Of a stretch of DNA of 64,000 nucleotides, positions 33,852 through 57,486 are shown in pieces. The notes under the pieces were generated by a model. The model did no database searches. It was not told the DNA's origin and was given only the letters and a program-made list of their open reading frames with translations. The translations under genes were made by a program, and so were the position numbers. Each line of letters starts with the position of its first letter. Position 1 is the stretch's first letter. The stretch comes from Kappaphycus alvarezii (lineage: Eukaryota; Rhodophyta; Florideophyceae; Gigartinales; Solieriaceae), in contig NADL03000137.1 in NCBI GenBank assembly GCA_002205965.3, positions 62,001 to 126,000 of the forward strand, written 5' to 3'.

Positions 33852-35635
33852 TCAAAATCCCATGCCAACTATTATCCTTAATACATGTTCCTCCCATTTC
33901 GTTGCCCATTTTGCCGCGAAAGCCGTAAAATCCAAGACGCCGCCCTTACCAGGAATCCTTATAGCTCTATTCCACCTCGGACTGTTCACCCACATTTCTG
34001 TTTCCCTGCAATCACCTGCCAGAATATCCAAGCAATAATTCATCATCATCATGGCACCTCCCTTCCACAACACAATGTGTCCTCTGGTAGCACAATTTCC
34101 CCAACCATCACAGAGCACCCGTGCTCTCACATCCTCCTCATAAACTAAATCCCGTCGCTTGAAGTCTCGGAGCAGCCTGCTGTCTACACAGCCAGCTTCA
34201 TTCTCCCCTTGGTCTGCCCACTACACCCTTGGGCGTGGGTGAGGTATTCTCTCCTGACGTTTCGGGTGTGGTGAGGGCACTTCTTGCAGTTAAATTGCGC
34301 CAACATAAGCGGTACCTCGAATCGGAGCGAACAGAAACACAACTCTCTCCCTCATCACAGTCTCCATCGCTCGTGCAGGCCGAATCATCAATGCGAGGCC
34401 GAATGCAAAAACATGAGCCCCAACGATTGCAGTATATGCTGTCCTCACTGTTCTGTTGACAAATTCTGTCGTCCTTGCAACTGTCATCTGAGGTGCAGCG
34501 GTCCCCCGAAACTCCAGTAAATTCTGGAGAGAGTGGTTGTAGCCTGGTAACAAGGTGTTTAAAAGCACCCTCGCTATTGTTAACCACAGTTTTAGACATA
34601 CACACACCAATGAACGAGTCATGGCGTGAAAAAACACATGTGTTTCCCCATCTTGACACTCATGATCCTTGCGGCAATCCTTATCTTGAATGGGGAAACA
34701 GCGACATCCGCGGTCCCCACACTCGCGCGCGCTTCCGAAGCGGTCCACTCTGCATTCTCTCGGTCCCATACAATCTGTCGATGTTTTACATCGATCATAA
34801 CTCAATCCCATAGCCTCGGCTTCCTCCTTCTCCTTAGTTGCATTATTCTGGGCATGAAACTCGTGAAATCGTTCATCTGCTGCACCCAAACACGAGATAC
34901 GCAATGCAAGTCGTCAACCGCTGCTCCAGTATTAGCACATATTTCACCATATGGACATTCCCATGACACAACACAGGACAAAAAACCGCTACTCGGAATG
35001 CAAATGCAATCGTTCTGACCCTGACACATTTTCCTTCCCAATGTTTGACAAATCCGATTCCCCGCACAGTGAGCGTTGTCTTGACAAGTGTCCCATGTCA
35101 AGGCTGTACCATTACCTATAGCGCTGTAAGTTTCCAAAGGACGGATGAAGTGGGACCGCTTAGTTATTAGAGAACGGCGGAAGGCAGCCCTGGAGAGGCA
35201 AAAAGTGTAGCCATCGACCATTCTGATTGCAAAGAGTTCGCGAGAGTCGCATTCATCGTCGGAAGTACAGGTGGGATCGTACGTAGGGAGGCACACGCAA
35301 GAGTCTGAAGCATTTGACGGACACGTAGTGGAGGATGCATTAAATGATTGAGCACAGACGCGAAGTCCGCGTTGATGGCTATCGCAATGTTCTTGTGCTG
35401 TGCAGTTGTCGAGGGTGACTCCGGGCCGTATGATATACGGCCCGTCGGAAGAGCTACGGGAGCCGGTAGAAGGGAGGTAGTTGAGGGAGGGAATGAGCGA
35501 CGAATGGAGGAAAAGGAAGTTGTTGTTGGGCGAGGAATCGGAATGAAGTAGGAAGAATATTGGAACCAGTTGGAGAGAGAGAAGAAGAATGACGCCGAGA
35601 CATCGGTAAAGTGACGGGGAGACGCGAAAAAGCAT
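33852..35635 (-). pseudogene. Broken copy of the cysteine-module secreted protein
   Basis: Minus strand. The first frame (35635-34802, 277 codons) has a hydrophobic N-terminus (LGVILLLSLQLVPIFFLL) and two cysteine modules starting GVTLDNC and ALTWDTC. The third module (GLSYDRC) and the fourth (GVSGDRC) lie in two other frames (34904-34290 and 34659-34198). The C-terminal domain (about 34200-33852: GCVDSRLLRDF, NCATRGHIVLWKGGAMMMM, WVNSPRW) is in yet another register. Module number and order match the 686-residue protein at 51787-53847. Module 1 has lost its ninth cysteine (DSRELF where the others have GEIC or similar). At least three frameshifts argue for a pseudogene; sequencing indels or unusual introns are less likely but not excluded. 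Confidence 0.8.
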
Positions 35636-35789: not shown

Positions 35790-35860
35790 GTACAGTTCAG
35801 TATACTGTACAGTATGGTATTTGACACTTTTTTTCATGTGCCATACTGTACAGTATGTAT
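35790..35860. repeat. Palindromic ATACTGTACAGTAT pair
   Basis: The 14-bp palindrome ATACTGTACAGTAT occurs in two copies, extended to a 16-bp inverted repeat (35802-35817 and 35841-35856) with a 23-bp spacer. It lies upstream of the start of the broken cysteine-module gene. Confidence 0.8.
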
Positions 35861-36059
35861 CAAGTAAACCAAAAAACCCATAAAATGTTACGTAACCCAG
35901 CTCAACAATAAAACCCCCCGTGCCTTCCATTAAGTGATACAGCAGCAATGCAGCCTACATACTGTACAGTACTTTAGTATAACAGGTGTCCGCTGCAGGA
36001 TCCGACTGTATTGCTAGCTAAGAGCTAACAGGATGTTCCACGTCGTCTGTAGTTTTCCA

Positions 36060-36410
36060 CGGGGGAATTTTGGCGGTAATTTATTATTTGGAAAGGGGGG
36101 AATGTGGGGTGATTTAATATTTGAAAGTTATGGTCGGTTGTGGCCCGTAATATTCTACAGTACTGTAGTACCTCTTAAATTTCCCTAAAAAACCGGCTCA
36201 AGGCCGCCCAGCACACGTGCTGCGTGGGACATTACGTCCGCGGCACAAATTTACTGGGTTCCAACCCAAATATCTACCACAGTAAATTAACCCCCCATTT
36301 TCCCCTTCGGCCTCCATCGCCATTATTTGGAAAGGGGGGAAAATCGGGTTTTGTTTTACTGCGAGTAATGGAACGGTTGGGAGTCCTCTGTATTTGGAAA
36401 GTAATGTCAT
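36060..36410. repeat. Cluster of LINE 3'-terminal pieces
   Basis: GGGGGGAATGTGGGGTGATT at about 36096 (minus-type tail running into TATGGTCGGTTGTGG), the A-type 3' UTR in plus orientation at 36241-36300 (CAAATTTACTGGGTTCCAAC, then CAGTAAATTAACCCCCCATT), and GAAAGGGGGGAAAATCGGGT at 36330. No coding part is attached to any of them. Confidence 0.65.
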
Positions 36411-36518
36411 TTCTTAAAGTGAGGCCACATGTTGCATTAGGGATTGACCTGAGTGGGTAGTCATACAGTAGTAACTGTACTTGAGAATGATCTTTACTCA
36501 TAAAAACATTTACATAAA

Positions 36519-36752
36519 ATGGCATTGCTTATCTTTGCAAATCTTGAAAATGAATTCGGATCAGGCGTCCAATACCATTGTCTGCGTATGCTGAAAAGGA
36601 TTGGTGCTTTGCCTCAGGCCGCCCCTTTCAAACCTTTAGTGAAATTTGAGCATTCACATTGCTGCATTCCACTGTTCCGCAATGACTTCTCCAATGCTGT
36701 TACTGTTAGTCAAGAAGAAAGAAAGAAGTTTAATGCATTCATTATCTACTGA
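36519..36752 (+). pseudogene. Short ORF sharing its C-terminus with two other loci
   Basis: 77 codons from ATG, ending QEERKKFNAFIIY. The same DNA (GAAAGAAGTTTAATGCATTC) occurs at 3431 inside a LINE tail and at 50893 downstream of the first cysteine-module gene. It is probably the 3' end of an unidentified mobile ORF rather than a host gene. No domain seen. Confidence 0.35.
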
Positions 36753-38690: not shown

Positions 38691-38701
38691 TGCATCTTTA
38701 T

Positions 38702-38964
38702 TCAATACGCTAGGGAGCAAACTGCGGCCAAATAAACCCCGCAAAAATAGCCAGCAATAGACCGAGAAAACCAATTGAAAGAACAACAACAAGGGGCGAT
38801 TCTTGTTTCACGAAATGACTCCCCAAGAATGCTTAGATCACAGAGCGCTCCAAAAAGGCTGCGCAAAACTTTTTTTGTCTTAAAAATTCCAAAAGGGAAA
38901 AAAGCGATCCCTCCAATAATAATAAAGTACGCAAACTGGGCACTTTTAGGCATGCCTCAACACG
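38702..38964 (-). CDS. Possible small two-segment membrane protein, frameshifted
   Basis: On the minus strand an ATG-started frame (83 codons, start 38950) opens with MPKSAQFAYFIIIGGIAFFP, a membrane-like segment. Partway through, a neighbouring frame reads HFVKQESPLVVVLSIGFLGL, then LLAIFAGFIWPQF and a TAG at about 38708-38710, a second clear membrane segment. AATAAA follows within about 15 bases of the stop. Two hydrophobic segments on one strand, a short basic loop and a poly(A) signal suggest a real gene of about 80 residues with one indel between them. The KQ/KEP.LVV... stretch faintly recalls the complex I NDUFA3/B9 subunit, but this is weak. Confidence 0.35.
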
Positions 38965-39099
38965 TAACTACACTTCCCGCGAACTAAAAACGAATCTGAA
39001 CTTGTCAATTTCAGTACTATTAGTACAGCAGATACTGTCGGGAAGTGGTCACATGATCTACAAAAAAAGGAAATCTGTCCCCACTATGGCAGCTGAACT

Positions 39100-39225
39100 G
39101 GTATTGGTCCAACAGTTAACTCCATTTCGGTTCTACAGTATTCACTAGTATCGCGAAGTAGTATAAATGTTGATAGTCTGCCGCTTCAGTAAAGAGAACG
39201 ACATCACCTGAATTGAACCTAAGAG
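39100..39225 (+). repeat. 5'-truncated LTR of copia element 3
   Basis: Matches 43572-43697. TAGTATAAATG may be the promoter TATA region. The sequence left of 39100 does not match the corresponding part of the 3' LTR, so no target duplication can be checked. Confidence 0.85.
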
Positions 39226-39344
39226 TTTATGGGCCCAGAGTAGAACGCAACTCTCTATAATTCTCCCCAGCTCCCCGAACTCGGACTGACCTCTGTCTTT
39301 ACCACTCTCATCGTGAACATGACACGATGAGGTGAGGCGGAAAA

Positions 39345-40220
39345 GTGCGAATTCGCCCGCTTGAAGCAAAGACCGACTATTGTCTTTGGCGCATTCGCGT
39401 CAAGGCCGCCATGAGTGCCAAGGGACTCGAAGATGCGCTATCCGATAAGGCAGTGGATGATGATCAAAAGACCTTCATGGAACACCAACAGCAAGCGAGT
39501 AACATTATCTTCGCTTCATTTAGTTACCAAGCCTTGAGGGTTTTCAGAGCCGTTATCGGGAAACCCAAAGGCATGTTTGAGAAGCTGGACAAGCGGTATG
39601 ACTCGAAGTTCACCGCGACCAAGATTTCCAAGATGTACGAACTGGTTTCAATGAAGTACTGTAGCCTCCATTAGGACCTTGGTGGACAAATTGACCGATT
39701 GGAGGGATTGTTGAAGCGGCTTACCAGTATGGGAACTGTACTGCAGGACTCTCTGGCGATAGGGATCCTCGTTGCATCTATCGAGGAACCATCGCGACAG
39801 TCCGTGACGGCAGCAATCAAGACTCTCTCCGAAGAACGGATTCAGTGGGAGGATGTCTCCGCACGTCTCCTGGAGGCAAGGAGGCTGCTAATGACTGACG
39901 ACGGAACCAGCAATCGCGCAACAGCAGCCAGCTTGGCCAGCTCGATTTTTGGCAAGGTTAATTACCGTACGGAACAGTGCTTCCTCAACTCCTTGAATCC
40001 GAATAACCGTTTGAAACTTGCAGACGATGTTACAAGCCACAACATAATTGGCGGTAACAGACCTAACGGAAACAGAAAGGGATACCGCAACGGAAAGAAG
40101 TCAAGTGCAAGGGCTGCTGTAGCGAAGACGGATGTGAAACCAGATCTGATGATGCTGGACAGCTGCTGCATGTCACACATGACACCGCATGGAGATAAGG
40201 TTCACTACAAAACGGGGTAG
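39345..40220 (+). pseudogene. Copia element 3 Gag and protease box
   Basis: Two frames (39345-39674; 39699-40220). The first has DYCLWRIRVKAAMSAKGLED and MFEKLDKRYDSKFTATKISK, the W..W.......L...L and LD..Y patterns of copia Gag (UBN2/DUF4219-like). The second has helical SVTAAIKTLSEERIQWEDVS, basic GNRKGYRNGKKSS and, near the end, MLDSCCMSHMTPHG, the protease active-site position with D-S-C-C where D-S-G-A is expected. One stop separates the frames. Confidence 0.7.
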
Positions 40221-40222
40221 GC

Positions 40223-41725
40223 GTGAGCATGAGGCTCACTGACGATTCTTCCGTTACGGAGAATGTGAAGGGCACCCGAATTGTGATGTCGGAAACCGGT
40301 GACGGAGAACAAGAGGTCCGCCTTTCAGAAACCCTTATGAGTCCCAACATGGCTATGAGTCTACTTTCCGTTCTGGTAATGGGGCGCAAACAAATTGGGG
40401 TACTCTCTATGCCCGGAAAGGCCGTATTCATTGACCTTTCGGATGGCATTGCCATACTCGGATTTGGTGAAAAGGGCCGAGGCGGATTATTCTACATACC
40501 GGATTGGATTTCTTGCGGTACGCGGAGCATCTCCAAGACGGACAAAATTGTTACAGCCATGGTCTCCATCGCTAGAGATGGAGACCATATAAACTATAAT
40601 GAGTGCTCGATGAAGACTGCAGTGGCTGAGGACCCTTCCACGCCAGGGGGCGCAGTGGATAACCGAAACGGGAATGATGCGCAATGTAAGAAGAAGACCC
40701 GCGACACCGAAAGGAATAAGTAAATTGCCAAACTGTGGCATCTGCGACTCGGTCACGCCACCCCTATCAAGGCGATGAAGAAGGCAATCCAAAACGGTCA
40801 GCTCCCTCATATCAAGTGCAGCTCTAAAAGTTGTGGAGCTTGCACTATTGGGAAGTTCAAACGTCGGTTCGATGGCTCCCTGACTAGTGAAGACCGTCCT
40901 GCACTGCATTGTGATACCAAAGGCAAGATTGAGACCGAATCGGTTGGAAAGCACAAATACTTCCTCACCATCGTGGATGAGTGCACAAGGCACACCGCAA
41001 CTATTCCGCTCCGGTCTAAGGATGATGCTTCGGATGAGCTACTACAGTTCGTTCGCTTCTTTGAACAACGGTCAGGCCGAATGGTTCGCGAAAATCATAC
41101 CGATGGCGGAACTGAATTCATGCCTGTCTTACACCGACTCGGAAAGGACGGGGGGATTTCATCTTTTACTAAAGTGCATACAACCCAGTCTAACAGTTTG
41201 GCCTAACGGTCTCATCAGGCCACCCTCTCGTTGGCAAGGACCTGTTTGTCCGAAGCCAAAATTCCGATCCGGTATTTGAACTATGCAGTACAGCATGTGA
41301 CTGACTGCAAGAACTATGTTCCCCACACCGTTATGGGAAAGGTTCCCTACTGTGCTCCCTTTGGTAATTCACCAAGGGCACTGGGGCACATCCGCCCTTT
41401 CGGCTCACGCATCTTTTATCAACTAACGACCAAGATGGCTACTTTTGATCAGCGTGTCCGTTCCGGATTATTTCTCCTACGTGAGAGGGGATTATTTTAT
41501 CAAGTGCTGACCGATACGGGAATTGTGCACACAAAGCACACCAGGTCTGATGAAATCAGGTTTCCTGGAATCTCCGAAGTCTGTCAAGCAGTTCCCGGTG
41601 ATGAAAAGGACGACTCCCTACTGTTGAACGTACCGATTGTTGTAACAGTACCACTAATGATACTGATTCAGATACTAAATCGTAGGATGAAGGCCAAGGT
41701 ACCAACGTGGACCTTGAGGCCTTGA
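40223..41725 (+). pseudogene. Copia element 3 pre-integrase and integrase
   Basis: LWHLRLGHATPIKAMKKAIQ, then CSSKSCGACTIGKFKRRF, gives the HHCC zinc region (40735-40870). The core follows with LHCDTKGKIE (first aspartate), FLTIVDECTRHTATIPL and NHTDGGTEFM (second aspartate). From 41231 a shifted frame carries YAVQHVTDCKNYVPHTVMGK, then PYCAPFGNSP and HIRPFGSRIFYQL, the C-terminal integrase pattern. A 12-bp perfect inverted repeat sits at 40559-40588. Confidence 0.8.
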
Positions 41726-41873
41726 CTCATGTGCCGGCAAAGCCGAGCACATTTGGAGAGTCAACCGAGGATTCCGACGAAGAAGTCGAGAACCAAACCG
41801 AAACGGAACGCGAAGAAGCTACTGTACATGGAATTATAATCTACGACCGCGTCAACGGGTTGATTATAACTTC

Positions 41874-42697
41874 ATGGCACAGTCCGACTTCCTCCAGCAC
41901 ACGGATGAACCGAAGCTGAGAGCAGCACTGAAGTCAACCGATGCGGAAAAATGGAGGGATTCCATCAAGGAGGAGTTCAGCACTCTTGTCAAGAATGGAA
42001 CCTGGACCGATGCGGAAACTGTACCTTTTGGAGCCAGGGTCTTACCCTCCGGCATCATCCTCAAAATCAAGAGGGATGCTAAGGGAAGACCAGCACGGTA
42101 CAAGGCACGTCTAGTTGCCCGTGGCAACCTTCAATCCGATCCGGTTGACTACACGGAACTGTACGCCCTGTTGCGTGCATTGAATTGGTTCGCGTGCTAC
42201 TCTCCGTTGCGATTGCCAACAACTGGCAAGTGGACCAGCTGGACATCAAGGGTGCGTTCCTCCACGCAAACCTACCCGCATCGGAGAACATTTGGATTCG
42301 CATGCCAAATGTGGAAGGAATTGACTCCGCTAACGGTCAGACTGTGAAGCTGAACAAATCCCTTTATGGTCTGCGCCAAGCTCCCAAACTTTGGTATGAG
42401 CACTTCCAGAAGACTATCTCCGCTGTTGGATTTCGTAGATCGATGGCAAGCGACTGCTTGTTCATCAATGATCTACCAACCGGACGGGTGTATATCGTCA
42501 TGTACGTTGACGACCTCTTGGTATTTGGATCGAGTAAGACCGTTGCGACGTTAAGAAGACCCTCAGTGGACTGTTCACCGTTACGGATCTTGGAACTTGC
42601 CAGTACTTCCTTGGCATCAAGTTCGATTGGACCGCCAACGGACTGTTTATTTCCCAGAAGGCGTATGCCAAGCGTATCATCGACGCCGCTGGGATGA
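41874..42697 (+). pseudogene. Copia element 3 reverse transcriptase
   Basis: Frame 1 (41874 on): AEKWRDSIKEEFSTLVKNGT and LPSGIILKIKRDAKGRPARY, then KARLVARGNLQ. Frame 2 (42185 on): WQVDQLDIKGAFLHANLPAS (motif A), LNKSLYGLRQAPKLWYEHFQ and YIVMYVDDLLVFGSS (motif C, YVDD at 42503-42514). All catalytic residues are present, but the domain is split by a frameshift near 42150-42185. Confidence 0.85.
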
Positions 42698-42699
42698 AC

Positions 42700-43469
42700 T
42701 CTGCCAAACCGATGCGGACTCCTCTCCCTCTCGCGCATCCTCTGTACAAGGAGAAGGCTCCCTGACCGATGCGGACAAGCTCAAGATGCTAGAAAAACCG
42801 TATCGGGAGGTCCTTGGTGCGCTCCTGTATCTATCCACCAGGACCAGACCGGATATTGCCACTGCGGTGTCCATGCTTGGAAAGTATCAAGCTGATCCCG
42901 CTCCAGAACATTGGAAGTGCCTACAGCACGTAATCAGGTACCTCATCAAAACGACCGACTACGGAATTCTGCTACCATTCGGCCACGATTCTGCAAGCCT
43001 TTGCGCGTATAGTGATGCAGATTGGGCTAGAGATGAGTCTAAGAGACGCTCCCGTTCCGGTTTTGTTCTGTTCATCAACTCCACTCCGGTTATTTGGACG
43101 AGCAAATTGCAGATCTGCACGTCCTAATCCACCTCTGAAGCCGATTTCATAGCTCTATAGGCCTGTATACGGGAGGTAAATTGGATCAGGGAGCTTCTTT
43201 CCGAAATCGTTACTCCGCAAGAAGGTCCCATGAAAGTTTACCAGGAAAATATTGGAACTATTTCTTGGACGGAGGGCGTAGAAGGACTCCGAAAGGTCAA
43301 GCACATTGATATAAAATGCCAGAACGTTCGAGAAGCGGTATCGGATGGTCTGGTTGAGGTACTCTACACAGCGTCCCGGGAAAACCGTGCTGATCCGCTG
43401 ACAAAGATCCTTGGCCCTGAATTTTTTCTATATCCGACAGCGGCTCTTACTACTCCCGCCTCGGTCTAG
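42700..43469 (+). pseudogene. Copia element 3 RNase H
   Basis: YREVLGALLYLSTRTRPDIA, then AVSMLGKYQADPAPEHWKCL, CAYSDADWARDESKRRSRSG and a C-terminal frame (43230-43469) with HIDIKCQNVREAVSDGLVEV and ENRADPLTKILGPEFF. This is the classical copia RNase H order. A frameshift and a stop lie around 43127-43230. Confidence 0.8.
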
Positions 43470-43487
43470 CGACTTAGGGGGGCGTGG

Positions 43488-43697
43488 TGTGATGACCACA
43501 AATACAGTAAGTCACTATCCCAAATGCGAAATTTGCCAGCCCTCCTGGACGTGGATTTAATTCTCCGCTACGGTATTGGTCCAACAGTTAACTCCATTTC
43601 GGTTCCACAGTACTCACTAGTATCGCGAAGTAGTATAAATGATGATAATCTGCCGCTTCAGTAGAGACAAAGACATCACCCTCATTGAACCTAAGAG
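43488..43697 (+). repeat. 3' LTR of copia element 3
   Basis: Starts TGTGATGACCACAAATACAG directly after a purine-rich tract and ends near TTGAACCTAAGAG. Confidence 0.75.
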
Positions 43698-44051
43698 GAC
43701 TGCTTTCAAATCGGGGGTCCAGTGCAGGAACCGACTATGTCGCTAGCTAAGTGCTTACCAGGTGGTCGACGTCGGCCACGAGCACAAGCGTACGTGACAC
43801 GATAGCGTTAGCCAAAGACGACCAGATCATGTAACTAGTGTTTTGGTATGTTCTCGTTTTGATAACTCCAACAGATGTATGCAATTTCCGCGATGCGCTG
43901 GAAAAGATCCTCTATAAAGCGGATAGTAGAGGGGGAAGGCGAACCCAGGGAATAGAAAGCCAGCGGTTGGAAATCGAAGTTGGGAGCCTAAATTAGATGC
44001 AATGGCATCCAACATTAAACACTCAATGAAAAATTCACGCATCCATTACTG

Positions 44052-44121
44052 TAACGATGGCCTATGATGCATATCGTAGGTTGCATACCCAGAGATTGTG
44101 GGTTCAGTTCTCGCTGGGTCT
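44052..44121 (+). tRNA. tRNA-like sequence (pseudo-tRNA or SINE head)
   Basis: GTGGG-TTCAGTT-CTCGC at 44098-44114 folds as a five-pair T arm with a seven-base loop and a near-consensus B box. TTGCATA (44081-44087) could be an anticodon loop with GCA. The 5' acceptor strand does not pair with the 3' TGGGTCT, and the D arm is weak. More likely a relic than a working tRNA. Confidence 0.3.
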
Positions 44122-44416
44122 CTAGCAGAGGCCAGAAAAATCCGTTGGGAACTAGACTTGTTGTGAAAAAGCTGCTGTCTCAGCTTGCCATTAGGCACCC
44201 AGTTGAACACGAGACAGGATACGGTGGCATCTCATAAAGGGATAATTAATTACGCCATAGACAAAAAATAACTTCGTAAGTCATATAAAGCAAGCTGAGC
44301 GACTAGAAAGCTATAGAAATAGCTCTCAAAACAGTGTTTTACTTTTACTTCAAAAATACACACCAACTTGTTTCAACTTGGAGTCATAGTTAGGGCTCAT
44401 ATGGTGCTTTTTATCG

Positions 44417-46233
44417 CTAGTCCATTTTTACGGTAATTAGAGCAAAAAAGTTTAACTCATCCATATTGCAGCCCAAACAGAGCCTCTGGTAAGGTGCGAT
44501 GGTGTACACATCACTACTTAGCTCCCTCTTGTAGTTGTTCCCTACAACATGGTTTCCAATACCCGCAACAGGATCCAATGACAAGTCATCTTCCGCATCT
44601 CCCACGCAATTACATGCTCGGCGAGACATTGATTCAAACTTGATTTAAACGAGTTCCTCAGCAAGTATCTCACTAAAATTTAGACTGTAATAACGATAGT
44701 CTTGGCCCGAAAGAATGCTTTTAAAGTAATCATGAATAAAATACTATGGTCGATAGAAGAGGGGAGTTGATCCTGAGCGACCAATCTTTCACTTACAACT
44801 TCTCCTCAATTCTAATGTTATTTTGACTGTAATTCTTAAGATGATCGGTTTGAGAACACGTTTCATAATATCTCTCCACAACATCTGGAACCGCAATCTC
44901 AATTTCCACCTTCTTTGTGTCACCTTCCACAGTTCTCCATCTTTCCCTGCAAATTCGGATCCCTCGATCCGTCTAATGGCAACTTTTAATGAAATATCCT
45001 CGTTCTCTATTCATCGAAAAACAGCCTTGAAATATTTTTTGGTGTTCAAACTCTTGGAAAACATGGAAATATAATCTCTGCGCTCTATAAGCTCCTGTGA
45101 TGAAAAGAATTCCATCATAAATTCCAAATTTTACATCGGTATCGACGCGATCTGTCTCCAGCCGCGGTCGTTTTTCCCATGACAAGCTCCATACTCAACA
45201 TTATCCCAGACTGACCACATGCCGAAGTCTTCCATTCACACCCAATACAGAGTTTCCTGTCATAGGAGAAATACCGTGGAAGTCCTTTCTTGATTCAGGC
45301 TACGCCGATACCGTACCAGCTGCAGATGCTTTGATCTATGCAAATTTGAAAAGAACGGTAATCATTGAAAGCCCTCAGGAACCCACTCACTAGAGACCAT
45401 CTTGTGTCATCTAAGGGCCTTTTTTCCTTTTCGGAAGGGCGAACGAAGCAAAATTACCGAAAATCAGCTCAAACATCCTGCGTGACATGATCTTTCCAAA
45501 GCTTGGTCTTGGAATATACTTCGATTCATTCTCATTGCAGATGTCTCAAAGAATTGAAAATCTAAACCGTTTCATTAGAATTAGAACTCTGAAAAACTTA
45601 CATGTCTCCCCTGACAAAACAGGCTGAGTTCCAATATCATCCAATTACTCAAGTTCACCAATGGCATTGAGGAGATAGAGCAGAAAATTGATTACAAAAC
45701 ATTTAAATGGCGATGAATCTCGAAGAGCACGACCATTTGTATAAGTATTACCGGACTAGCCCATTAATTGGAAGCTTTTTCGGAAACATTTTAGTTAATT
45801 GCTTTTAAAACCTCCTGATTGGTCGCAGTCGCTTGTGGAAAATTGCATTTACATCTGTTTGAGGCGTTTTTTAATCATCCGAATTCCCATTTAAGGCGGA
45901 TGGAGACAATGAAGAAGCATCTGAATCTTGATTTTCGCATTCATTCGGCAATTGAACCGGTTCAAATTCAGCCAAAATTTCTGTTGGAGGTAACAATGCT
46001 TTGATGTTGAAAATACTGAGCGTGAAGATCTTGAAATGTTCGCGTATCCTCCGGCCTTTTTCCACTGACTTCGTGCTTCGCCCGCTTAAAATGTCACTAT
46101 AAACTGCAATGACGGTTCCAGAGACCAATTCGTTCTTCCATGCTGACTCACACAAGCGCTTACATTCTGCCGCTGACGTAACAATGGAAGATCTGCAGTG
46201 ACTTTGATTTCTCGGAACAGTTCGTGGATCCAT
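44417..46233 (-). pseudogene. piggyBac-like (DDE_Tnp_1_7) transposase relic
   Basis: Minus-strand frames, much broken. Near 45420-45200 one reads FLRAFNDYRSFQICIDQSIC, then SWYG and GLPRYFSYDRKLCIGCEWKT, then SGIMLSMELVMGK. This follows the piggyBac pattern (F....P....VDE.M..W.GR ... GLP......RKP...G.E.K..CD..(S/T)G.ML..E...GK), with IDQ for the catalytic VDE. Frame 45185-44973 (FGIYDGILFITGAYRAQRLY) would be the next strand. 46233-45871 could be the N-terminus and 44629-44417 the C-terminus. No TTAA-flanked ends were identified. Confidence 0.4.
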
Positions 46234-46411
46234 TTTTGCTAAGAGGAAGGGAAAATTGATGGTTACCGCTTAAGGGAAAGTTGTTTATGCGCTGAGCCAA
46301 GTTGCAATTCTCGAAAATTTTGTTTTAATCGAGTATCCTTATGCCTTAATGAACACGTAGGGCCAGAAAATGCTACTAAAAAGATTTTTAATTGAAAAAT
46401 TTTGTTAAAAG

Positions 46412-46890
46412 TTGTCCTCATATGAGGGCAATGGTTCTGCAGACACTGGACCATCTTCAACAAGAATTTACATGCAAAAGAAAAGTCGCGTGATCCACCA
46501 CCTTTGCCAACCCATTCACCATCTCTCCAGCAAGGTGAAGTATGGAGCCGGTGGATACAAAGCTGTGTATATCCCCGTGCTCGTAATCACCTCACCCGCG
46601 CGCCCGGTTGCCTCCTGCCCATGGACGCCTTTGGGGTTGAATATGACAGGGGCGAGTTCCGTACAGTAGAACGTAGGGACTGCTTATTACCGACTGGTGA
46701 CGTTCGAGAAGGTTTCGGAAGACGCGATCAAAGCGATTTGACCGCAGACTTGTTGGTCTTGGGTAGTGAAAAGAGTGGGAGGGCCACTGAAACAACGGAT
46801 AGAAGAGCTCGAAAATTTGCACCGAGAGTACCTTGCGGAGCTGAATATCCATGGCTGGAAAAAGCAGGCCCCTTTGCTTGTAATCTGTAA
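46412..46890 (+). pseudogene. Coding-like fragment, unrecognised
   Basis: Overlapping plus frames. One carries VGGPLKQRIEELENLHREYL, then AELNIHGWKKQAP, a helical charged stretch that runs into the short retroposon at 46891. Upstream the same frame has stops. Possibly the 3' end of a transcript from which the retroposon tail derives. No family recognised. Confidence 0.25.
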
Positions 46891-47080
46891 GCCTATGTGC
46901 TTACAGCGGGAGTTTTTTAAGCCTTCTGAATCCCCGGTTCAGTTGGTGGAGTTTTCTTCCGGTCCCTTTTTCGCTTGAGTGGGCAATCGGTTCAGCCGTT
47001 GCCCGGAGTCGTCCGACTAGCAGAACCCGAGGTCCTGTGTAGTGCGGACTTGTCTTCAAACAATAAAGCGTCATTCTCCT
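46891..47080 (+). repeat. Short retroposon family member (longest plus copy)
   Basis: Begins GCCTATGTGCTTACAGCGGG and ends CAATAAAGCGTCATTC. Same family as 3573-3713 and 10502-10695; hairpin at 46981-47004. No flanking direct repeat is evident. Confidence 0.7.
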
Positions 47081-47119
47081 TCTCTCTCTCTTGTAATCAA
47101 GAACCTTACGTACAACATT

Positions 47120-47200
47120 GCAGTGCTGTACAGTACTGTACTGTACTTTACGGTTATATATTATAATAATAATAATACAGTATACTGTATATATAATCAT
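47120..47200. repeat. GTAC palindromes and AT simple repeat
   Basis: GTGCTGTACAGTACTGTACT, then TATAATAATAATAATACAGT and ATACTGTATATATAA: overlapping palindromic units next to a TAA run. Confidence 0.75.
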
Positions 47201-47344
47201 CTTCACTTCATGTATTATTAAAGGCGTACAAGCCTAGCTGACAGTGTAAGCTAAGATAGTTGAAGTTCGGTTGGGAAAGCAACAAGTCTGACTGTTCAGG
47301 GCGGTACCGTAATGTATCGCATACATGTAATAAATTGCTTTTAC

Positions 47345-47689
47345 TCATGAAAGAAGGATCTTTTCTCAGTACTTATTCTGGGTGTGCGCCGACTGGCCGA
47401 CTATTTGTTTAGTACTGGATGGACCAAATCGGTCACGTGCAGTGGGGCGCGCGCTATGATGGCCGTAGCCACCGACGACCACAAAGCGCAACTGATACCC
47501 TGGCACATGTAGATGCGTGTGCGAATCGTAGCGTCCGAGGTGCGGCGTTTCCTGGCTACACGTGGTACAAACTCTTCAATGAATAATGCGGTCTCCGGAG
47601 AAGGGGCAGCGAGGGAGTCGAAAACCAGAGGCTGGAATCAGAAACGTGGTTCGCGGGAGGGCAGGGAGGGGGACACCAGGCGCCTTGAC
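47345..47689 (-). repeat. Interspersed repeat family R (copy 3)
   Basis: Inverted counterpart of 11684-12025. The plus-strand frame encodes FLATRGTNSSMNNAVSGEG, then ESKTRGWN, the same peptide as the minus strand at 11.7 kb. The two copies match closely over most of 300 bp. Confidence 0.65.
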
Positions 47690-48560
47690 AGCTTGTGCTG
47701 TAGGTCCTGGAGCTTGTGTTGGTGAGTGAGGGCGGCAGGGCCACCGGGGACTTGCGTCTCTTTGGTAATTGATGACTGCTTACACCGGGACGTCACAGGG
47801 ACGTTGCATGGGATGGGTCGGTCTGGCAGGCCAGCCTCAGTGTCAAGGGGGAATTGCACGAGGAGAGGGTAAATGGTAAGGGCCTCGTTGGTACTCCTCG
47901 AGGGATATCGCATGCGGAGCATAACTTGCTACTGAATTAGTGGCATGATGGTCGCTTTGCACTATTACGTTGTTTATCATACATACTACAGATGCTTGAT
48001 CCGACGCGAAAAGGTACTCTGATCTGAACCCTTGAGACAAAAATAAAAAGCTTGAAACAGATAAGAATTGAAGGGAGAGAAAAACAAACCCCCTCAAAAT
48101 AGGTGAATCAAAAGCAAAATAACCATCAACCAATTACATCGGCAGGTCAAAATCAAATTGATTTGCAAGCTCAAAAATTTGGTAACCTACTGTATGATGC
48201 AGTCTCACTTTTCATTCACGGCATGGGTTTTTGCTGGCTGTACTGGCCGTGTCGACGTTTGAATACCCTGTAGCATAATGCGAGGTCCTCGAGTAAGCGT
48301 CGAGGCAAGGTTGGTGAAAGACGCACCATGGAAAAATTCCTCATTTGGGTATGCTATGCACTGTAGTTGTTGAGCTTTTCGGGTGTCAAGTTTCTATTTC
48401 TTGCCATGCAAGGGCCTCTTGCTATTGTACCAATGAACAGCGTGCTGAAAGGGGGAATTTTTGGGTTATTTTAATGAATGAATAGTTTGCAGTAGATGTC
48501 CTCATGAGCGTACGGTAGTTGAAATGACCGTCTCGAAAAAGTTGGTCCATCGGACAGCCA
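47690..48560. other. Intergenic; one small LINE-tail piece
   Basis: GGGGGAATTTTTGGGTTATT, then TTAATGAATG at about 48451-48480 is a minus-oriented LINE 3' terminus. Nothing else recognised. Confidence 0.45.
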
Positions 48561-48690
48561 CGAACTTTTGTACTGTGCAATATAGCGTTAACGGTACCAA
48601 GAACACATTACTCTCAATAAGTACAGTATGTAGATACTGTACAAAACGACAAACTACAATATGTCAGTATTGTACCACCAATAGGTAGCT
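48561..48690. repeat. GTACAGTAT palindrome cluster upstream of the first cysteine-module gene
   Basis: GTACAGTAT-GTAG-ATACTGTAC (48621-48642) is a perfect 9-bp inverted repeat with a 4-base loop, with further TTGTACTG and AGTATTGTACC motifs around it. Confidence 0.7.
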
Positions 48691-49036
48691 ACGGTAGACA
48701 GCAACTTTGGCACTCACGTCATCTTCAATAACGACCAATTATTTATTGACCAATTGTATAATGCCATCCCCTTCCCCGCATCTTACAGCCCCTCCAAACA
48801 TTGCCAATCCACCGCCGATTACACATTCGTTGTAAACAAAAAAAATTTCAAAATTTCCTACAAGCCCCGTTTGCTTTTCTCCAATCCCCAACGACACCGT
48901 ATGAATCATACTGTAATACCAATCAAACTCCAAGCCATTTGCTCCGCTCACCAGACAAATCCAACACCAGCGCTCCAGGCATGACCCTTACCCTTGCCGC
49001 CGATCACCGCCACCTCTCCCGAGCCATACCGAAACG

Positions 49037-50701
49037 ATGCGCCTCTTCTGCCCCCTTCTCCTCCTCTTCCTCGCTCCCATCCTCTCCCACCCCATCCTCC
49101 CCCTACCACAACCACAACACGCATCCAGGCCGCCCATTCCCGCTTCCAAGGTTGCTATCCTCTATCATGCGGTCAACGCCTCTTTCGCCAAAATTCAACA
49201 TTCGCTCAATTCCTCTTTCCCAACTCTTCGTCAAGATGTCTCGGAAACTACCTTGCCACCAACAGCCGGTCTTACCCTCGACCCCTGTTTCACAAATTCC
49301 GATTGTGTTGCCCCGCGGACCTGTCTTGCCCTGAGCGATGAACTTGAGTTCGACGCACCATGCCTGCCTGATTCCGAGTTGTGCAGTTGTCTGCAGGTTG
49401 ACGCCCCCCAGTGTTCCGGCTCCACCGATTGTATTGACGAAGAGAGTTGCGCCGTATCGTTATTCAGAACGGATCCCATTTGCTACTCGAGGAGTCAAAC
49501 GATGGGTGACGATTCCTTCTTATTTGTCCTTTTCGATAGTTTGGAGGGCGGGGTAAATGGAGACGTGTGCGAAAGTGGGGATGTATGCAGAGGTGCTAGG
49601 TTGTGTTCGGAAGACACTCCAGAGAGTATGGATTGTCGGCCGGGAAGGGAGTGTTTCTGCTTCCCTTTGTTTAATCCCAGTTGTTCGACCAGTGACGAAT
49701 GCGATGAGGGGGAGGAATGCAGGGATACGGGACTGGATAACCGCGTGTGCTTTACGTTAGCAGAGTTCAACTCTGTGGATGGGGTGGCCGAGGAGCCGGA
49801 TGAGCCGGAAGAAGGACCTGTGATACAACGGCCTAATCCAAGCAGTATGGTTGAAGAATCGCCAGCCTCTACCTCTGAGGAACTCGACGGGATGTTTCCT
49901 GAGACTGACATGTCACCTACCGGCGAGCCGGTGGACACGGCAGAACAAGTGGACACGGCAGAACCAATGGACACAGCAGAAGCCAGTAGCACTGGTGAAG
50001 ATACAGCTACTGCACAAGCTACAGTTACCGCGGAGGCTGTGGACACGACAGAGGGTACAGAAACCGGTGAGGGTACGATGAGCGGCGAAGCAGAGATGAG
50101 CGCGGAAGCGGTGAATGTAGGGCCTATGCAGAGCGGTGAGGCGGGGCGCGGTCCGACGTTCCTCGCGCTAGAAGGGACGGAAGGGGAGAGTGAAATCATG
50201 GCATCGATGTCGCCAGAGTTTGAGGTGGCGGTGTCGATACCGCCAGTAGTTGGGGATGCAGCGGATGTGGAAGGGACGGTTGAAATATCAGAGGACGAGA
50301 TGATGGAGACGGAAGCGGAAGCGGAAGCGGAAGCGGAGGGGACGGAGACGGCGGCGGCGGTATGTGTGGATGTTGAGTTGTTGAGAGGGTTTTCGAGGGA
50401 GGAAATGGTGTTTGAGGAGGATCGTATGGCGAGGGTGTGGTGTGATTCGGGCGGGAATTGTGCGACTGGGGGACATATGGTTGTGTGGGAGGGACGGGGT
50501 ATGATGATGAAACGGTACTGTGGGTTGGTGGAGGGGGGGTGTGTGAGGAGGGATAAGTTGGTGAATAGTCCAAAGTGGAGGGTTGGGAGAAGGGTGAGGG
50601 GATGGCAGGAGGGGGGTGTGGAATTTACTACGTTTGCGGCACGGTGGGAGACCAGGGTTGAGGAAAGGGTTTTGGCTGGTGTGGTTCGGATGGGGCTGTG
50701 A
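49037..50701 (+). CDS. Secreted protein with two ten-cysteine modules and a conserved C-terminal domain
   Basis: 554 residues from ATG 49037, no intron needed. Residues 1-18 are a signal peptide (MRLFCPLLLLFLAPILSHP). Module 1 (78-149) and module 2 (172-238) each have exactly ten cysteines with the order C-x5-C-x5-C-x9/12-C-x5/6-C-x-C-x7-C-x5-C-x5-C-x9/10-C and start GLTLDPC and GVNGDVC. Residues 245-440 are an acidic Thr/Glu/Ala linker with VDTAE repeats and an (EA)n run. The C-terminal domain (441-554) has cysteines at 443, 469, 475, 495 and 502, NCATGGHMVVWEGRGMMM and VNSPKW. The module pattern suggests an extracellular disulphide-rich binding or wall-associated protein. I recognise no family, and the C-terminal domain is unknown to me. 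Likely paralogue of 51787-53847. Confidence 0.85.
   Translation: MRLFCPLLLLFLAPILSHPILPLPQPQHASRPPIPASKVAILYHAVNASFAKIQHSLNSSFPTLRQDVSETTLPPTAGLTLDPCFTNSDCVAPRTCLALSDELEFDAPCLPDSELCSCLQVDAPQCSGSTDCIDEESCAVSLFRTDPICYSRSQTMGDDSFLFVLFDSLEGGVNGDVCESGDVCRGARLCSEDTPESMDCRPGRECFCFPLFNPSCSTSDECDEGEECRDTGLDNRVCFTLAEFNSVDGVAEEPDEPEEGPVIQRPNPSSMVEESPASTSEELDGMFPETDMSPTGEPVDTAEQVDTAEPMDTAEASSTGEDTATAQATVTAEAVDTTEGTETGEGTMSGEAEMSAEAVNVGPMQSGEAGRGPTFLALEGTEGESEIMASMSPEFEVAVSIPPVVGDAADVEGTVEISEDEMMETEAEAEAEAEGTETAAAVCVDVELLRGFSREEMVFEEDRMARVWCDSGGNCATGGHMVVWEGRGMMMKRYCGLVEGGCVRRDKLVNSPKWRVGRRVRGWQEGGVEFTTFAARWETRVEERVLAGVVRMGL
50300..50345 (+). repeat. GAAGCG hexanucleotide repeat in the linker
   Basis: Four to five GGAAGC units encode alternating Glu-Ala (residues about 426-434), just before the C-terminal domain. 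Confidence 0.75.
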
Positions 50702-50759
50702 GGCGACGATTGGGCCATTGGATTTTGGGATTTTTTGGTTTTGGAGGACGAGATGGTGG

Positions 50760-51060
50760 CGGTTATCATACTGTGGAGTAAAGTACAGTACTATGCTCTT
50801 TTCTTCTTGATTGTTATCCATAGGATTGGATGTGCATGAAAACGTGGCAGCTGTGGTCGGGCTTGCTCTGTTACTGTACGGTACTATCATTTGAAAGAAG
50901 TTTAATGCGTTCAGTATCATACCAGTCTTGAAAATAGGGTATCGTAGGGCATGGAGTGCGTGTGCCAAATAACGTACTGCAATGCAACTTTTGCAAAGAA
51001 TACTATTGCTGACGTTGTTCAAGCAGCAGCACGCATACAGTACAGTACTATACACTACTC
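50760..51060. repeat. Scattered GTACAGTAC motifs
   Basis: AAAGTACAGTACTATGC (50780), TACTGTACGGTACTATC (50872) and ATACAGTACAGTACTATACA (51037) lie between the two cysteine-module genes. At 50892-50920 is the GAAAGAAGTTTAATGCGTTC piece shared with 3431 and 36721. Confidence 0.6.
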
Positions 51061-51195
51061 TCATGTCTGAGACCCGGAAAGACATACACAAATTGCTCGT
51101 TCTATTGAGCGGAGGGGTACATACGCGTGTACTCTTCAAGGGTAGATTTGTAATTGAAGAAAAAGGGCTTTGTAATGATTGGAAGACAGCCACTA

Positions 51196-51243
51196 CTGAA
51201 CTGTACTGTACTGTACAGTACTGCACAGTACAGTACGGTAAAC
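51196..51243. repeat. ACTGTACTGTACAG palindrome
   Basis: CTGTACTGTACTGTACAGTA, then CTGCACAGTACAGTACGGTA: nested inverted repeats that could form a cruciform, about 550 bp upstream of the second cysteine-module gene. Confidence 0.75.
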
Positions 51244-51786
51244 TAATGCGTGACTGGACAAGTGATTTCTCGTTAGTCGAGGAGGCTCCAATGTTGATTT
51301 CCAAGAGCTCAGCTCAATGCCACCCGTCTTGAACCCATTGATATAATCCAAAACGTATCATTTGTACACCACGTTCCAGTTGAAAACAGCAAACCCCGTT
51401 TCTCATTAGCCTCAACCAACAATGAATAATGCCGCACAAGCTTCCTTACCATTCACTTCAACAGCCGCAGATCGTACGGAGGGGGAGCCAAACCTTGTGT
51501 CCAAACATATTCCTTCAAAACATACCGCTGCCAAGCCAATGCTAGTACGCCCGTAGTCTCTCATTCCCCACCTGCCACTTGCAACTGTCACCCTCGTTGA
51601 CGATCACCATTCCACTTCCATCCCTCTCTTCAACATCGCCTCTGCCAAAAGTACCTTTTGACCTACATCCACCCCTATCCCTCCCCCGCAACGGACATTT
51701 CCTCTCCTCTAATCTCCCATAATCATATGCCCGAACCGCTCATGTTTCGCAACTTTGCTATCTCTCCGCCGACCACCACATTAGCC

Positions 51787-53847
51787 ATGACTCTTCCAAG
51801 TCCCCTCCTCACCCTTCTTCTACTCCCAGTCTTTCTTGCTCAACTCACAATCAAATCTGCCCACCCCCTACAACACACCCCCATCAAACCCTCCCACCAC
51901 CACTCCTACCCCTTCAACCAATTCCACCATAACGAAACCCACCTCCCACTCGAAAGCCTTCTCTCCAGATGTCTTCCCAACAATACCCTCGTCACCTCAC
52001 AGAGACAACAGCCTACACCCGGTCTCACCTTGGACTCGTGCAAACAACCACAAGATTGCCTCACCACCCCATCCGGTTCCCGAATCTGCGTCGTCCTGGA
52101 TGACCCAAATTCCACCCACTGTCCCGATTCCGCCTCCACTTGTAATTGCGCTCCTACCTTTGACCCCTCCTGCAATACCGACTCAGACTGTGATCCAGGT
52201 GAAATCTGTGCACCCAGGTTCTCCGATGGCTTCACCTTTTGCGTCTCCCGCCGTTACCACTCCGAAAATCTTCATCTCTTTCGTATCGACCAACCCGTTG
52301 GCCATGCCGGTCTCACCGGTGATTCCTGTCAATCCGACGATCAATGTCAAGACGGACGCCGATGTTTTGAGGATTCCCAAAACAGTACGTCTTGTCCGCC
52401 ACAAGGCCAGTGTTTTTGCCTTGCACAGCCTCTTCCTATGCGCTGTGTAGTTCCATGGGATTGTCCCCTGGGTGAAACTTGTGTGTACGTCCCAGATCTT
52501 GATCCACTGAAGCCTGTTTCGGATCTACCAACAACGAGTTTAGACCAAGACAATGACTTGCACGGGTTATGTTACTCGGAACAGGCCGCGCAAGAGGCGG
52601 AAGAGGACTCGAGTGATTTCTTCGAAATTTTCAAAGTGTATGGCATTGAGGATGAGACGTTGGGAGAGGAGGGCGAGAAAGGCCGAATGGGGCTGAGTTA
52701 CGAACTCTGCGACCGACAAAATGAGTGCAAGACAGGAACTACCTGCAAGGCCGATCGTTTCAATGCAAGCACCAACTGCGGCTCCCGAGGTTGTCGCTGC
52801 TTCCCTGACTTTGACAAGGTCTGTGTGGAAAATGCGGCGTGTGATCAAGGCGAGATTTGCGCCGCACGGAACAAGTTTTTCCAGATAGGCGTGTGTATCT
52901 CCTCAGCAGTGGTGGATCATATTCAACCGGCGTTGGAACCGCTCATTCCGCTTCCGAACAATATCCGTGGAACTCCGCCGACAGGCTTGACGGGGGAACG
53001 TTGCCTCCTCACTTCGGATTGTCAAGGTTATCGGATGTGCGAAGAGGATACAGAAGAGGTGAGGCCCTGTCCGGTGTGGGGTGTTTGTTTCTGCTTTCCG
53101 CCGGAAGATGTAGACATAAGGTGCAATCACGACGGCGACTGCGTTGCTGGGGAGGGCTGCTTTGCGGGGTTCGAAGAACCGATTTGTTTGGCCGAAAGCG
53201 CTGGGATAGCGAGCGAATTTTTTAATAAGGTTTCATCGACCATAACTCCGAGCCCCTCGCCATCGAGCGCAGCGACGCCGAATCCATCGACATCAAGCAC
53301 ATCGACACAGAGTCCATCGACATTAAGCACATCGAAACCGAGTCCATCGACATTAAGCACATCGAAACCGAGTCCATCGACATTAAGCACATCGAAACCG
53401 AGTCCATCGACATTAAGCGCATCGACACCGTCCAGTGCGGCAGCGGATACAGGCTCACAGCAGTTAGAATCGAATGATGTGGAGGATGGTTCAGAAGAGT
53501 CGGAAGTGGGATGCGTGGATGTGAGATTGATTGCGGACTTGGAGCGCGGAGATCTAGTGTACAAGAAAGATAGGTGGGCAAGGGTTCTGTGTGACGAGTG
53601 GGGAAGCTGTGCAACAAGAGGGCATATGGTGGTATGGAAGGGCAGGGCGATGATGATGGGAAGTTACTGTGCCGTTGTGGAGAAGGGTTGTGAGGGGAGG
53701 TCGATGTGGGTGAACAGCCCAAAGTGGAGGCGGGGGGGGAGAGTGTTGGGGAGGGGAGGTGGATTGGAATTGACGGCGTTTGCGGCAAGATGGAGCACGA
53801 CGTTTGAAGAGTCAGTGCTACAGGCATTGTTACATGCTGGGCTCTAA
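51787..53847 (+). CDS. Secreted protein with four ten-cysteine modules and a conserved C-terminal domain
   Basis: 686 residues from ATG 51787, chosen because MTLPSPLLTLLLLPVFLAQL then begins with a signal peptide; ATGs at 51727 and 51742 would place 15-20 polar residues before it. Modules: 79-152 (GLTLDSC), 175-262 (GLTGDSC), 302-370 (GLSYELC) and 400-467 (GLTGERC), each with exactly ten cysteines. Many C8-C9 intervals read [DE]C-D/P-x-GE-x-C. Residues about 480-555 are a Ser/Thr/Pro linker with PSTLSTSKPS decapeptide repeats, probably O-glycosylated. The C-terminal domain (574-686) has cysteines at 576, 602, 608, 628 and 635, the same spacing (26, 6, 20, 7) as its neighbour, plus SCATRGHMVVWKGRAMMM and WVNSPKW. 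Function unknown; extracellular and disulphide-bonded by inference. Confidence 0.87.
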   Translation: MTLPSPLLTLLLLPVFLAQLTIKSAHPLQHTPIKPSHHHSYPFNQFHHNETHLPLESLLSRCLPNNTLVTSQRQQPTPGLTLDSCKQPQDCLTTPSGSRICVVLDDPNSTHCPDSASTCNCAPTFDPSCNTDSDCDPGEICAPRFSDGFTFCVSRRYHSENLHLFRIDQPVGHAGLTGDSCQSDDQCQDGRRCFEDSQNSTSCPPQGQCFCLAQPLPMRCVVPWDCPLGETCVYVPDLDPLKPVSDLPTTSLDQDNDLHGLCYSEQAAQEAEEDSSDFFEIFKVYGIEDETLGEEGEKGRMGLSYELCDRQNECKTGTTCKADRFNASTNCGSRGCRCFPDFDKVCVENAACDQGEICAARNKFFQIGVCISSAVVDHIQPALEPLIPLPNNIRGTPPTGLTGERCLLTSDCQGYRMCEEDTEEVRPCPVWGVCFCFPPEDVDIRCNHDGDCVAGEGCFAGFEEPICLAESAGIASEFFNKVSSTITPSPSPSSAATPNPSTSSTSTQSPSTLSTSKPSPSTLSTSKPSPSTLSTSKPSPSTLSASTPSSAAADTGSQQLESNDVEDGSEESEVGCVDVRLIADLERGDLVYKKDRWARVLCDEWGSCATRGHMVVWKGRAMMMGSYCAVVEKGCEGRSMWVNSPKWRRGGRVLGRGGGLELTAFAARWSTTFEESVLQALLHAGL
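53280..53430 (+). repeat. 30-bp tandem repeat encoding PSTLSTSKPS
   Basis: Near-identical 30-bp units (CATCGAAACCGAGTCCATCG, then ACATTAAGCA) repeat about four times in the linker of the second cysteine-module gene, with the first and last units diverged. Confidence 0.9.
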
Positions 53848-53924: not shown

Positions 53925-54085
53925 TTCCGTACAGTATCCAGCATTCATTCAATATGTATCTACAGTAGTCCTACTGTACATACTGTATGTACAGTAGATA
54001 CTGTACTGTACTGTACTGTAGGTGCAACATGCAAAGACATTGAACACCCCTCTGAAACAGTACAATACTGTACCTACAGTACTAA
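53925..54085. repeat. TACTGTAC-rich cluster downstream of the second cysteine-module gene
   Basis: TACTGTACATACTGTATGTA, then CAGTAGATACTGTACTGTAC and TGTACTGTAGG, then TACAATACTGTACCTACAG: a dense run of overlapping palindromes. Confidence 0.8.
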
Positions 54086-56514: not shown

Positions 56515-57486
56515 TCATGGTGTCCAACTGGAGAGCCAAGAGTAGTGATGGCCGAAGATTTGTTGACCGTGCACAGGAGAGCGGCTTGCTGTGGGAGTGG
56601 ACCACCAAGCCTCGGTTTTCTGTAGATTGATGTAAATACCGTAATCAGGTCCCTCGGTTTCAATTTGACGCAGGAGGGAGGCGGCGGAGTCCTGTTGTTT
56701 AACAATGTTCCCGTCGTCTGCGTACCATGTCTGAAGAGGGGCCGTAGGAAAAGACTCACGTAAACGAATGAGAAATGGGTGGATTGATAGCGCGTAAAGG
56801 TGCATGGCAAGTGGATCGCCTTGGTGTGTACCGGTCCTAGAGGAGACCAAGAAGGGGACGAAAAGAAGGTGCGATTGGTGGCTGTATAACAGATGTGCGT
56901 AACGAGCAACCTGCGGTGTGTGAATGATGACTTCACGGAGCAGATGTGACCGCTCGACCCGGTTAAATGCATTCGTTAAGTCCAATTTCAGGAGCACATG
57001 GTCGCTGTCAGAGAGGGCGTCACAGGTGAGCCAAATGCCATGAATGATACTCCCAATTCCATGTTTCGAGCCGACGGCGTGTAGCAAGGGCCAAAGATAC
57101 GAGGTAAAGTCCTCATTCGAGCTTAGGTGGGCTGTGAGAAGGCGAGCGACGAAACAACGAAAGAGGACGCCGATGGCGATCGGGCGAAGTCGCCGCTTTT
57201 CACTCGGGGACTTTGGAATGGCAATCAGAGTGACTCCGGCGAACCAAGGTTGGAAGGAGAAAGGGATGTCTCCATTCGCAAGCATATTGACAAACGACGT
57301 GAGGGTGGTTAGTGCGTTGGCGCAATGCTCCGCCCCTACCGGGGCTCTAGCAAGTAGAGAGAGGATGGCAGGGCGGAGGCCGTCGGGTTCTGCGGCAGAA
57401 TGACGGGGGAGGGCGAGGAGGGCTCGGCGGATGGTGGTCTCATGGATTGGGGGAGAGGAGGGAAGCTGGAGGCGTGGGAGGGGAGT
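56515..57486 (-). pseudogene. LINE reverse transcriptase domain (YADD)
   Basis: Open for about 324 codons. PSSPPIHETTIRRALLALPR, then AAEPDGLRP (pre-motif), SFQPWFAGVTLIAIPKSPSE, RRLRPIAIGVLFRCFVARLL, VLLKLDLTNAFNRVERSHLL (motif A), GTHQGDPLAMHLYALSIHPF (motif B) and QTWYADDGNIVKQQ (motif C at about 56712-56724), then LQKTEAWW. All RT catalytic residues are present. The following LINE motifs (KLWDALKSLRDPQMAFHLLH) lie in another frame (56490-56331). Confidence 0.87.

Follow-up and report, generated by a model that had tools for sequence, protein, structure and literature searches.

The window analysed here, a 64,000-nucleotide stretch of contig NADL03000137.1 of the red alga Kappaphycus alvarezii, carries two adjacent genes encoding secreted-type proteins on the forward strand. 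Gene 1 (positions 49037..50701; 554 amino acids) encodes a hydrophobic N-terminus, two ten-cysteine modules (49262..49492 and 49544..49759), an acidic, Glu/Ala/Thr-rich linker that lacks cysteine and contains an 18-bp tandem repeat (49766..50362), and a C-terminal five-cysteine domain (50363..50698). Gene 2 (51787..53847; 686 amino acids when counted from the chosen ATG, the frame being open from 51658) likewise begins with a hydrophobic N-terminus, which is followed by four ten-cysteine modules (52015..52251, 52303..52581, 52684..52905 and 52978..53196), a Ser/Thr/Pro linker containing 5.1 copies of a 30-bp tandem repeat (53197..53511), and the C-terminal five-cysteine domain (53512..53844). 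Both reading frames are present where the initial annotation had placed adjacent genes. Kyte–Doolittle analysis reveals the N-terminal hydrophobic stretch in both proteins, and past residue 40 no 19-residue window exceeds 1.15 in either, a hydropathy that fits their putative secretion. Remains of transposons are also found in the window.

Nearly all cysteines of the two proteins are accounted for by these domains. The gene 1 protein has 26, of which 20 reside in the two modules, five in the C-terminal domain and one at residue 5, and the gene 2 protein has 46, with 40 in the four modules, five in the C-terminal domain and one at residue 62, ahead of module 1. The spacings C1-x5-C2, C5-x-C6 and C7-x5-C8-x5-C9 occur in all six modules, and C2-x5-C3 in five of them, the exception being module 1 of gene 2 (x9). 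With 60 of 60 module cysteines in register, the earlier proposal of secreted-type paralogues with strict ten-cysteine modules is supported. Across the six frames of the window, the pattern occurs eight times, six of these in genes 1 and 2 and two in a third copy; it never appeared when the residues of both proteins were shuffled 2000 times or the bases of the window 20 times.

The third copy (33852..35635, reverse strand) comprises four modules and the C-terminal domain spread across changing frames and is pseudogene-like; like the common C-terminal domain and the wider gene family, it is absent from the initial annotation. Its module 1 (35189..35428) lacks the ninth-position cysteine, modules 2 (34892..35110) and 4 (34294..34518) each retain ten, and module 3 (34644..34811) comprises the first eight cysteines only, after which the frame changes; the five-cysteine domain lies at 33855..34190. 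A paralogue on contig C77 has a single open frame. Among the 109 module instances detected with a profile at the examined loci, 65 contain all ten cysteines and the remainder are mainly partial matches, while an eight-cysteine variant in two near-identical paralogues represents an even loss. A tree of the modules supports duplication in the C211 and C100 genes; for genes 1 and 2 it gives no resolution on whether modules were gained or lost.

The C-terminal domain, 111–112 residues long and common to both proteins, links them to a larger set of sequences. Near-complete versions numbered 26 in the 29 examined pieces of the host genome, and 22 of these 26 contain five cysteines, an odd number. 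Genes 1 and 2 are members of a family dispersed over the host genome; describing them as a tandem pair was correct as to their adjacency and understated their membership of a wider family with a common C-terminal domain. Many family copies have long open frames, and several others are frame-broken like the third copy. In the libraries searched (Pfam over 14 members; PDB with a profile), nothing matched the C-terminal domain beyond a weak zf-His_Me_endon similarity in two of the 14 members (best E 0.031). The T-x-G-H motif of the domain suggested a Hint-like self-cleaving domain, an assignment that was dropped, no Hint family being present among the Pfam matches of the 14 members. The C-terminal profile gave three pattern matches in prokaryote contigs and three in viral contigs, none of them confirmed; the module profile proved too weakly conserved for scanning contigs in this way. 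The structure model of the domain, at pLDDT 47.8, was of insufficient quality to be searched for similar folds. Searches of NCBIfam with both proteins, of the PDB by sequence with gene 2 and with one module, and of phage records with gene 2 returned no match, and no description of this family appeared in the literature collection searched, with the words used. A Phage_TAC_4 match (0.42) to the window proteins was taken as chance.

For the modules, no Pfam family reached its own cut-off, and the strong match to a named family that would have spoken against the initial annotation did not occur. The closest was Dickkopf_N (PF04706), with a best score of 23.5 bits (E 6.9e-5) against a curated cut-off of 25 bits. 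This family matched eight of 24 modules at E up to 1 and none of 24 shuffles, one per module, in which the cysteines were held fixed, and the similarity thus extends beyond cysteine spacing. DUF7107 (PF23416) matched 17 of 24 modules versus one of 24 such shuffles, remaining below its cut-off where scores were printed (best match E 0.0022, 18.7 of 24.6 bits), and its 48 positions are fewer than those of a ten-cysteine module. The EB, DX and WAP families are also short cysteine-rich modules, whose printed alignments to the present modules are partial. DX (PF01666) gave weak matches to seven of 24 modules (best E 0.0018), and membership was rejected on score for both EB (PF01683; 3/24, best E 0.035, printed score 10.1 of 24.3 bits) and WAP (PF00095; 4/24, best E 0.025, printed score 11.1 of 20.8 bits). 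A structure model of gene 2 module 4, computed with the ten window modules as input (pLDDT 86.7, pTM 0.71), gave as its best Foldseek matches a chain of a Dickkopf–LRP complex (3s2k_C; E 6.8e-3, probability 0.93) and the N-terminal region of Dkk4 (5o57; E 0.14, probability 0.57), and many cystine-knot peptides match part of it. However, its superposition on the Dickkopf chains is poor, and the module profile reached only E 0.28 or worse against the PDB, including Dkk4 at 1.4 and 4.6. Among the folds guessed at the outset, Dickkopf is hence the best lead, being above the shuffle control in Pfam and first in Foldseek, and EB and WAP are weaker.

Comparison with Dickkopf proteins reveals both shared and divergent features. 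The Dickkopf cysteine-rich domain (CRD1 of Dkk4 in 5o57; CRD2 of Dkk1 in 3s2k) carries ten cysteines in two subdomains, as the modules appear to, and the Dickkopf_N alignment is near full length, covering profile positions 1–47 of 51. According to the residue numbers given in PMC6078440, the cysteine spacings of Dkk4 CRD1 are 5-5-9-2-6-5-0-4-4. Those of gene 1 module 2, taken as representative, are 5-5-9-5-1-7-5-5-9, and the C3–C4 and C9–C10 gaps are the most variable among modules, the latter loop reaching 29 residues in gene 2 module 2. The modules have CxC where Dickkopf has CxxC, and they lack the adjacent CC. Neither gene has the architecture of the Dickkopf protein family, in which a linker joins CRD1 and CRD2; here, two or four modules are combined with the unmatched C-terminal domain. 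Dickkopf proteins act on LRP5/6 and Kremen, and a red alga would not be expected to offer a Wnt context. We read each ten-cysteine module as a probable Dickkopf/colipase-like double knottin with predicted disulfide pairs, in which two small disulfide-locked fingers would be joined by a loop.

Constraint is unevenly distributed along the proteins. Between gene 2 and its copy at C86, dN/dS is 0.90 for the modules (bootstrap 0.58–1.54) and 0.16 for the C-terminal domain (bootstrap 0.04–0.55); all 40 module cysteines are unchanged, compared with 286 of 349 other residues. Gene 1 likewise has a C-terminal dN/dS of 0.15 and a module dN/dS near 1, and in the paralogue pair C561/C116 the modules are at 0.26. 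The C-terminal domain is constrained and the gene 2 modules are not, whereas those of C561/C116 are. A family in decay that retains little function would account for the frame-broken copies, the module ratios near 1 and the transposon remains; however, the low C-terminal ratios, the constrained C561/C116 modules and the many long open frames render this very unlikely.

Such modules also occur beside proteases. At C447, C625 and C169, stretches carrying AAHC and GDSGGP motifs follow downstream of them on the same strand, and at C447, the only locus scored, Pfam Trypsin matches at E 6.7e-19; the modules at these loci thus apparently precede a trypsin-like protease. The modules might accordingly be regulators or inhibitors of secreted serine proteases, be these endogenous or derived from grazers and microbes, acting in cis at the protease loci and in trans in the present family, and part of the module model does match squash trypsin inhibitors (E 1.9 and above) and other knottins. 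Against this, no inhibitory loop was identified in the modules, the putative protease genes cross frames, only the C447 and C862 protease frames showed the Asp motif searched for, and no protease was seen adjoining the window genes among the larger open frames listed, eight of which were scanned. We therefore consider protease regulation rather unlikely. A comparably doubtful alternative is a structural role in wall or matrix, in which rigid cystine beads on low-complexity strings would be cross-linked via the odd cysteine of the C-terminal domain. Acidic or Ser/Thr/Pro linkers, the prevalence of five-cysteine domains and secretion-type N-termini are consistent with it, but relaxed constraint on gene 2 modules around a fixed cysteine frame is more in line with binding than with a purely scaffolding role, and such modules also adjoin proteases.

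Building on the observed anatomy, family, cysteine frame and uneven constraint, we favor, at a probability of about one half, a dispersed red-algal family of secreted proteins with double-knottin binding heads. One to four modules would sit on low-complexity linkers, displaying, outside the cell, residues that vary around an unchanging cysteine framework, and would be carried by the conserved five-cysteine domain, which may retain or tether the protein there. That the heads serve in binding is itself a guess, with proteases, microbial surfaces or wall polymers as possible targets. A far more speculative extension, to which we attach little probability, is that red algae either evolved independently, or inherited from a distant ancestor, a set of extracellular recognition proteins based on Dickkopf-like double knottins, with fast-evolving arrays on the library-unmatched domain, and module–trypsin–TNFR-like proteases possibly forming a clip-protease-like cascade. 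A Dickkopf/colipase-like ten-cysteine unit in a red seaweed would bear on whether this fold is ancient or reinvented. To our knowledge, few molecules are known for extracellular sensing or defense in such seaweeds, and the C-terminal domain and the module–protease loci are concrete candidates for such roles.

Gene 1 (49037-50701) and gene 2 (51787-53847), adjacent open frames on the plus strand, encode in translation two and four ten-cysteine modules, respectively, as the initial annotation had proposed, and the C-x5-C opening, central C-x-C and later C-x5-C-x5-C that it described are all present in the shared spacing C-x5-C-x5-C-x(9-12)-C-x(4-6)-C-x-C-x(7-9)-C-x5-C-x5-C-x(8-29)-C. The six modules keep to this spacing, the sole exception being x9 between the second and third cysteines in module 1 of gene 2. 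The pattern is not due to chance, since the six frames of the window contain eight matches (six belonging to the two genes, two to a third, frame-broken copy) compared with none in 2000 protein shuffles or 20 window shuffles. Both proteins start with a hydrophobic stretch, after which no further strong hydrophobic segment is found in either. The module is read as a Dickkopf/colipase-like double knottin, the best explanation as a whole having roughly an even chance of being correct.

At their C-termini, both proteins share a five-cysteine domain of 111-112 residues; neither this domain nor the third copy was mentioned in the initial annotation. The two genes are 57% identical in this domain and 32% identical over the whole alignment. 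In the 336-Mb, 884-contig assembly containing the window, a search with gene 2 matched 72 places (E up to 10) and one with the gene 1 C-terminal domain matched 42 (E up to 1), fragments and split genes included in each case. Among 29 merged genome pieces, the spacing pattern recovered 50 modules, and 29 C-terminal matches exceeded 80 bits, 26 of which were longer than 95 residues. Five cysteines occur in 22 of these 26 domains, four in two, six in one and seven in one; in 22 alignment columns, no more than one of the 26 departs from the consensus, and the positions identical in all 26 include the pairs C-D, A-T, G-H and Y-C, together with the run V-N-S-P. A diverged form accompanies modules on contigs C100, C211 and C641, with three members scoring 20.7-24.2 bits and the highest of 900 cysteine-fixed shuffles 10.1. 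A frame at C127:141758-142978 (L038) carries a relative of the domain behind a cysteine-rich N-terminal part that is spaced differently. With eight further loci added to the 29 pieces, a module profile gave 109 instances, a count that includes near-identical copies, overlaps and fragments; 65 have all ten cysteines, and the remaining 44 are mainly partial, being cut by frame changes or by the profile ending early, as in module 2 of gene 2, where the match stops early although ten cysteines are present. In the titles and abstract openings covered by a literature search, no description of this module/C-terminal-domain family was found.

The third copy (33852-35635, minus strand) comprises four modules together with this C-terminal domain, and its reading frame shifts from module 2 to module 3, from module 3 to module 4, and from module 4 to the C-terminal domain. 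Its module 1 lacks the cysteine at the ninth position, and the frame of module 3 changes after the eighth cysteine. It is read as a pseudogene, which fits the dN/dS of its pieces against contig C77 (modules 1-2, 1.33; C-terminal domain, 1.32; few changes). A segmental copy of 33852-53847 lies at C77:377123-398679, with order and orientation preserved (third gene on the minus strand, then genes 1 and 2 on the plus strand), and may be either a paralogue or a diverged haplotype; there, the relative of the third gene is a single open frame of 620 codons, that of gene 1 is broken, and that of gene 2 is cut by the contig end. About 1 kb past the 3' end of the broken copy is an open Tc1/Tc3-type transposase frame (31778-32872, plus strand; DDE_3 1e-15, HTH_Tnp_Tc3_1 2e-8), and reverse-transcriptase frames occupy 5560-6591 (RVT_1 1.2e-9) and 56515-57285 (RVT_1 1.4e-10), both on the minus strand. 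The 8-mer TACTGTAC is present in 40 window copies, where 100 dinucleotide-preserving shuffles give an expectation of 1.14 and never more than 4; its sites, e.g., 7958-7975, 35803-35971, 51204-51235 and 53929-54073, are partly clustered just outside the module genes.

Gain or loss of modules between the paralogues, as initially proposed, is possible, and module duplication is supported elsewhere in the family. In a tree of 47 modules with few columns, for which the bootstrap had not settled, modules 2 and 3 of C211 and module 2 of C100 form a single group (100/99), supporting duplication there; the gene 1 modules are not placed. The first modules of gene 2 and the third gene cluster (96/88), as do their second modules together with one module from C550 (98/95).

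Constraint is uneven along gene 2. Against its copy on contig C86, dN/dS is 0.90 (95% bootstrap 0.58-1.54) for the modules with their inter-module stretches and 0.16 (0.04-0.55) for the C-terminal domain; the two regions differ in non-synonymous change (p 5.6e-5) and show no difference in synonymous change (p 0.66). The modules alone give 1.00, or 1.26 once cysteine codons are removed, and individually 0.54, 1.45, 0.53 and 1.57 on few changes; the linker gives 1.55. The C77 copy of gene 2 has the same module counts and is no independent datum. Gene 1 agrees, though the compared copies are broken genes (modules versus C86, 0.98; C-terminal domain versus C77, 0.15). Relaxed or diversifying module evolution is therefore seen in the genes of the window rather than as a demonstrated family-wide rule, since the C561/C116 pair counts against generality (modules 0.26, C-terminal domain 0.33), and C662 versus C746 gives 0.60 overall and C146 versus C467 gives 0.18 over the compared part.

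Elsewhere, modules are followed on the same strand by the trypsin motifs AAHC and GDSGGP, at C447:29400-32800 (L071), C625 (L077) and C169 (L078), and C862 (L076) holds a decayed copy of the C447 locus. The Pfam scan, which covered C447, matched Trypsin at 6.7e-19 and, at 1.2e-9, a TNFR-like domain, with TNFR/ephrin-receptor-like repeats scored there; those of C625 and C169 are putative proteases, assigned by their motifs. Frame changes between modules and protease mean that introns or breaks must be assumed in predicted gene models. OAAH lectin domains, which are present in some bacteria too, gave 36 matches on two contigs (C625:479872-619450 and C786:258558-404561), the nearest on C625 being about 49 kb from the module-protease locus. 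All 36 exceed the PF17882 cut-off, and none of 14 control genomes has a match. The domain has been reported in Kappaphycus, Eucheuma and Solieria (PMC11766507). The host is thus probably a red alga of the Solieriaceae, the bacterial occurrence of the domain limiting this assignment to a probable one.

Because modules are associated with protease sequence, control of proteases by the modules is a serious rival for the role of the family; a structural role in the wall is the other. Under the binding role that we favor, these secreted-type proteins, with their fixed cysteine frame and conserved C-terminal domain, would carry their binding heads, the double-knottin modules, on flexible linkers; any target is a guess, and the C-terminal domain may serve in retention.
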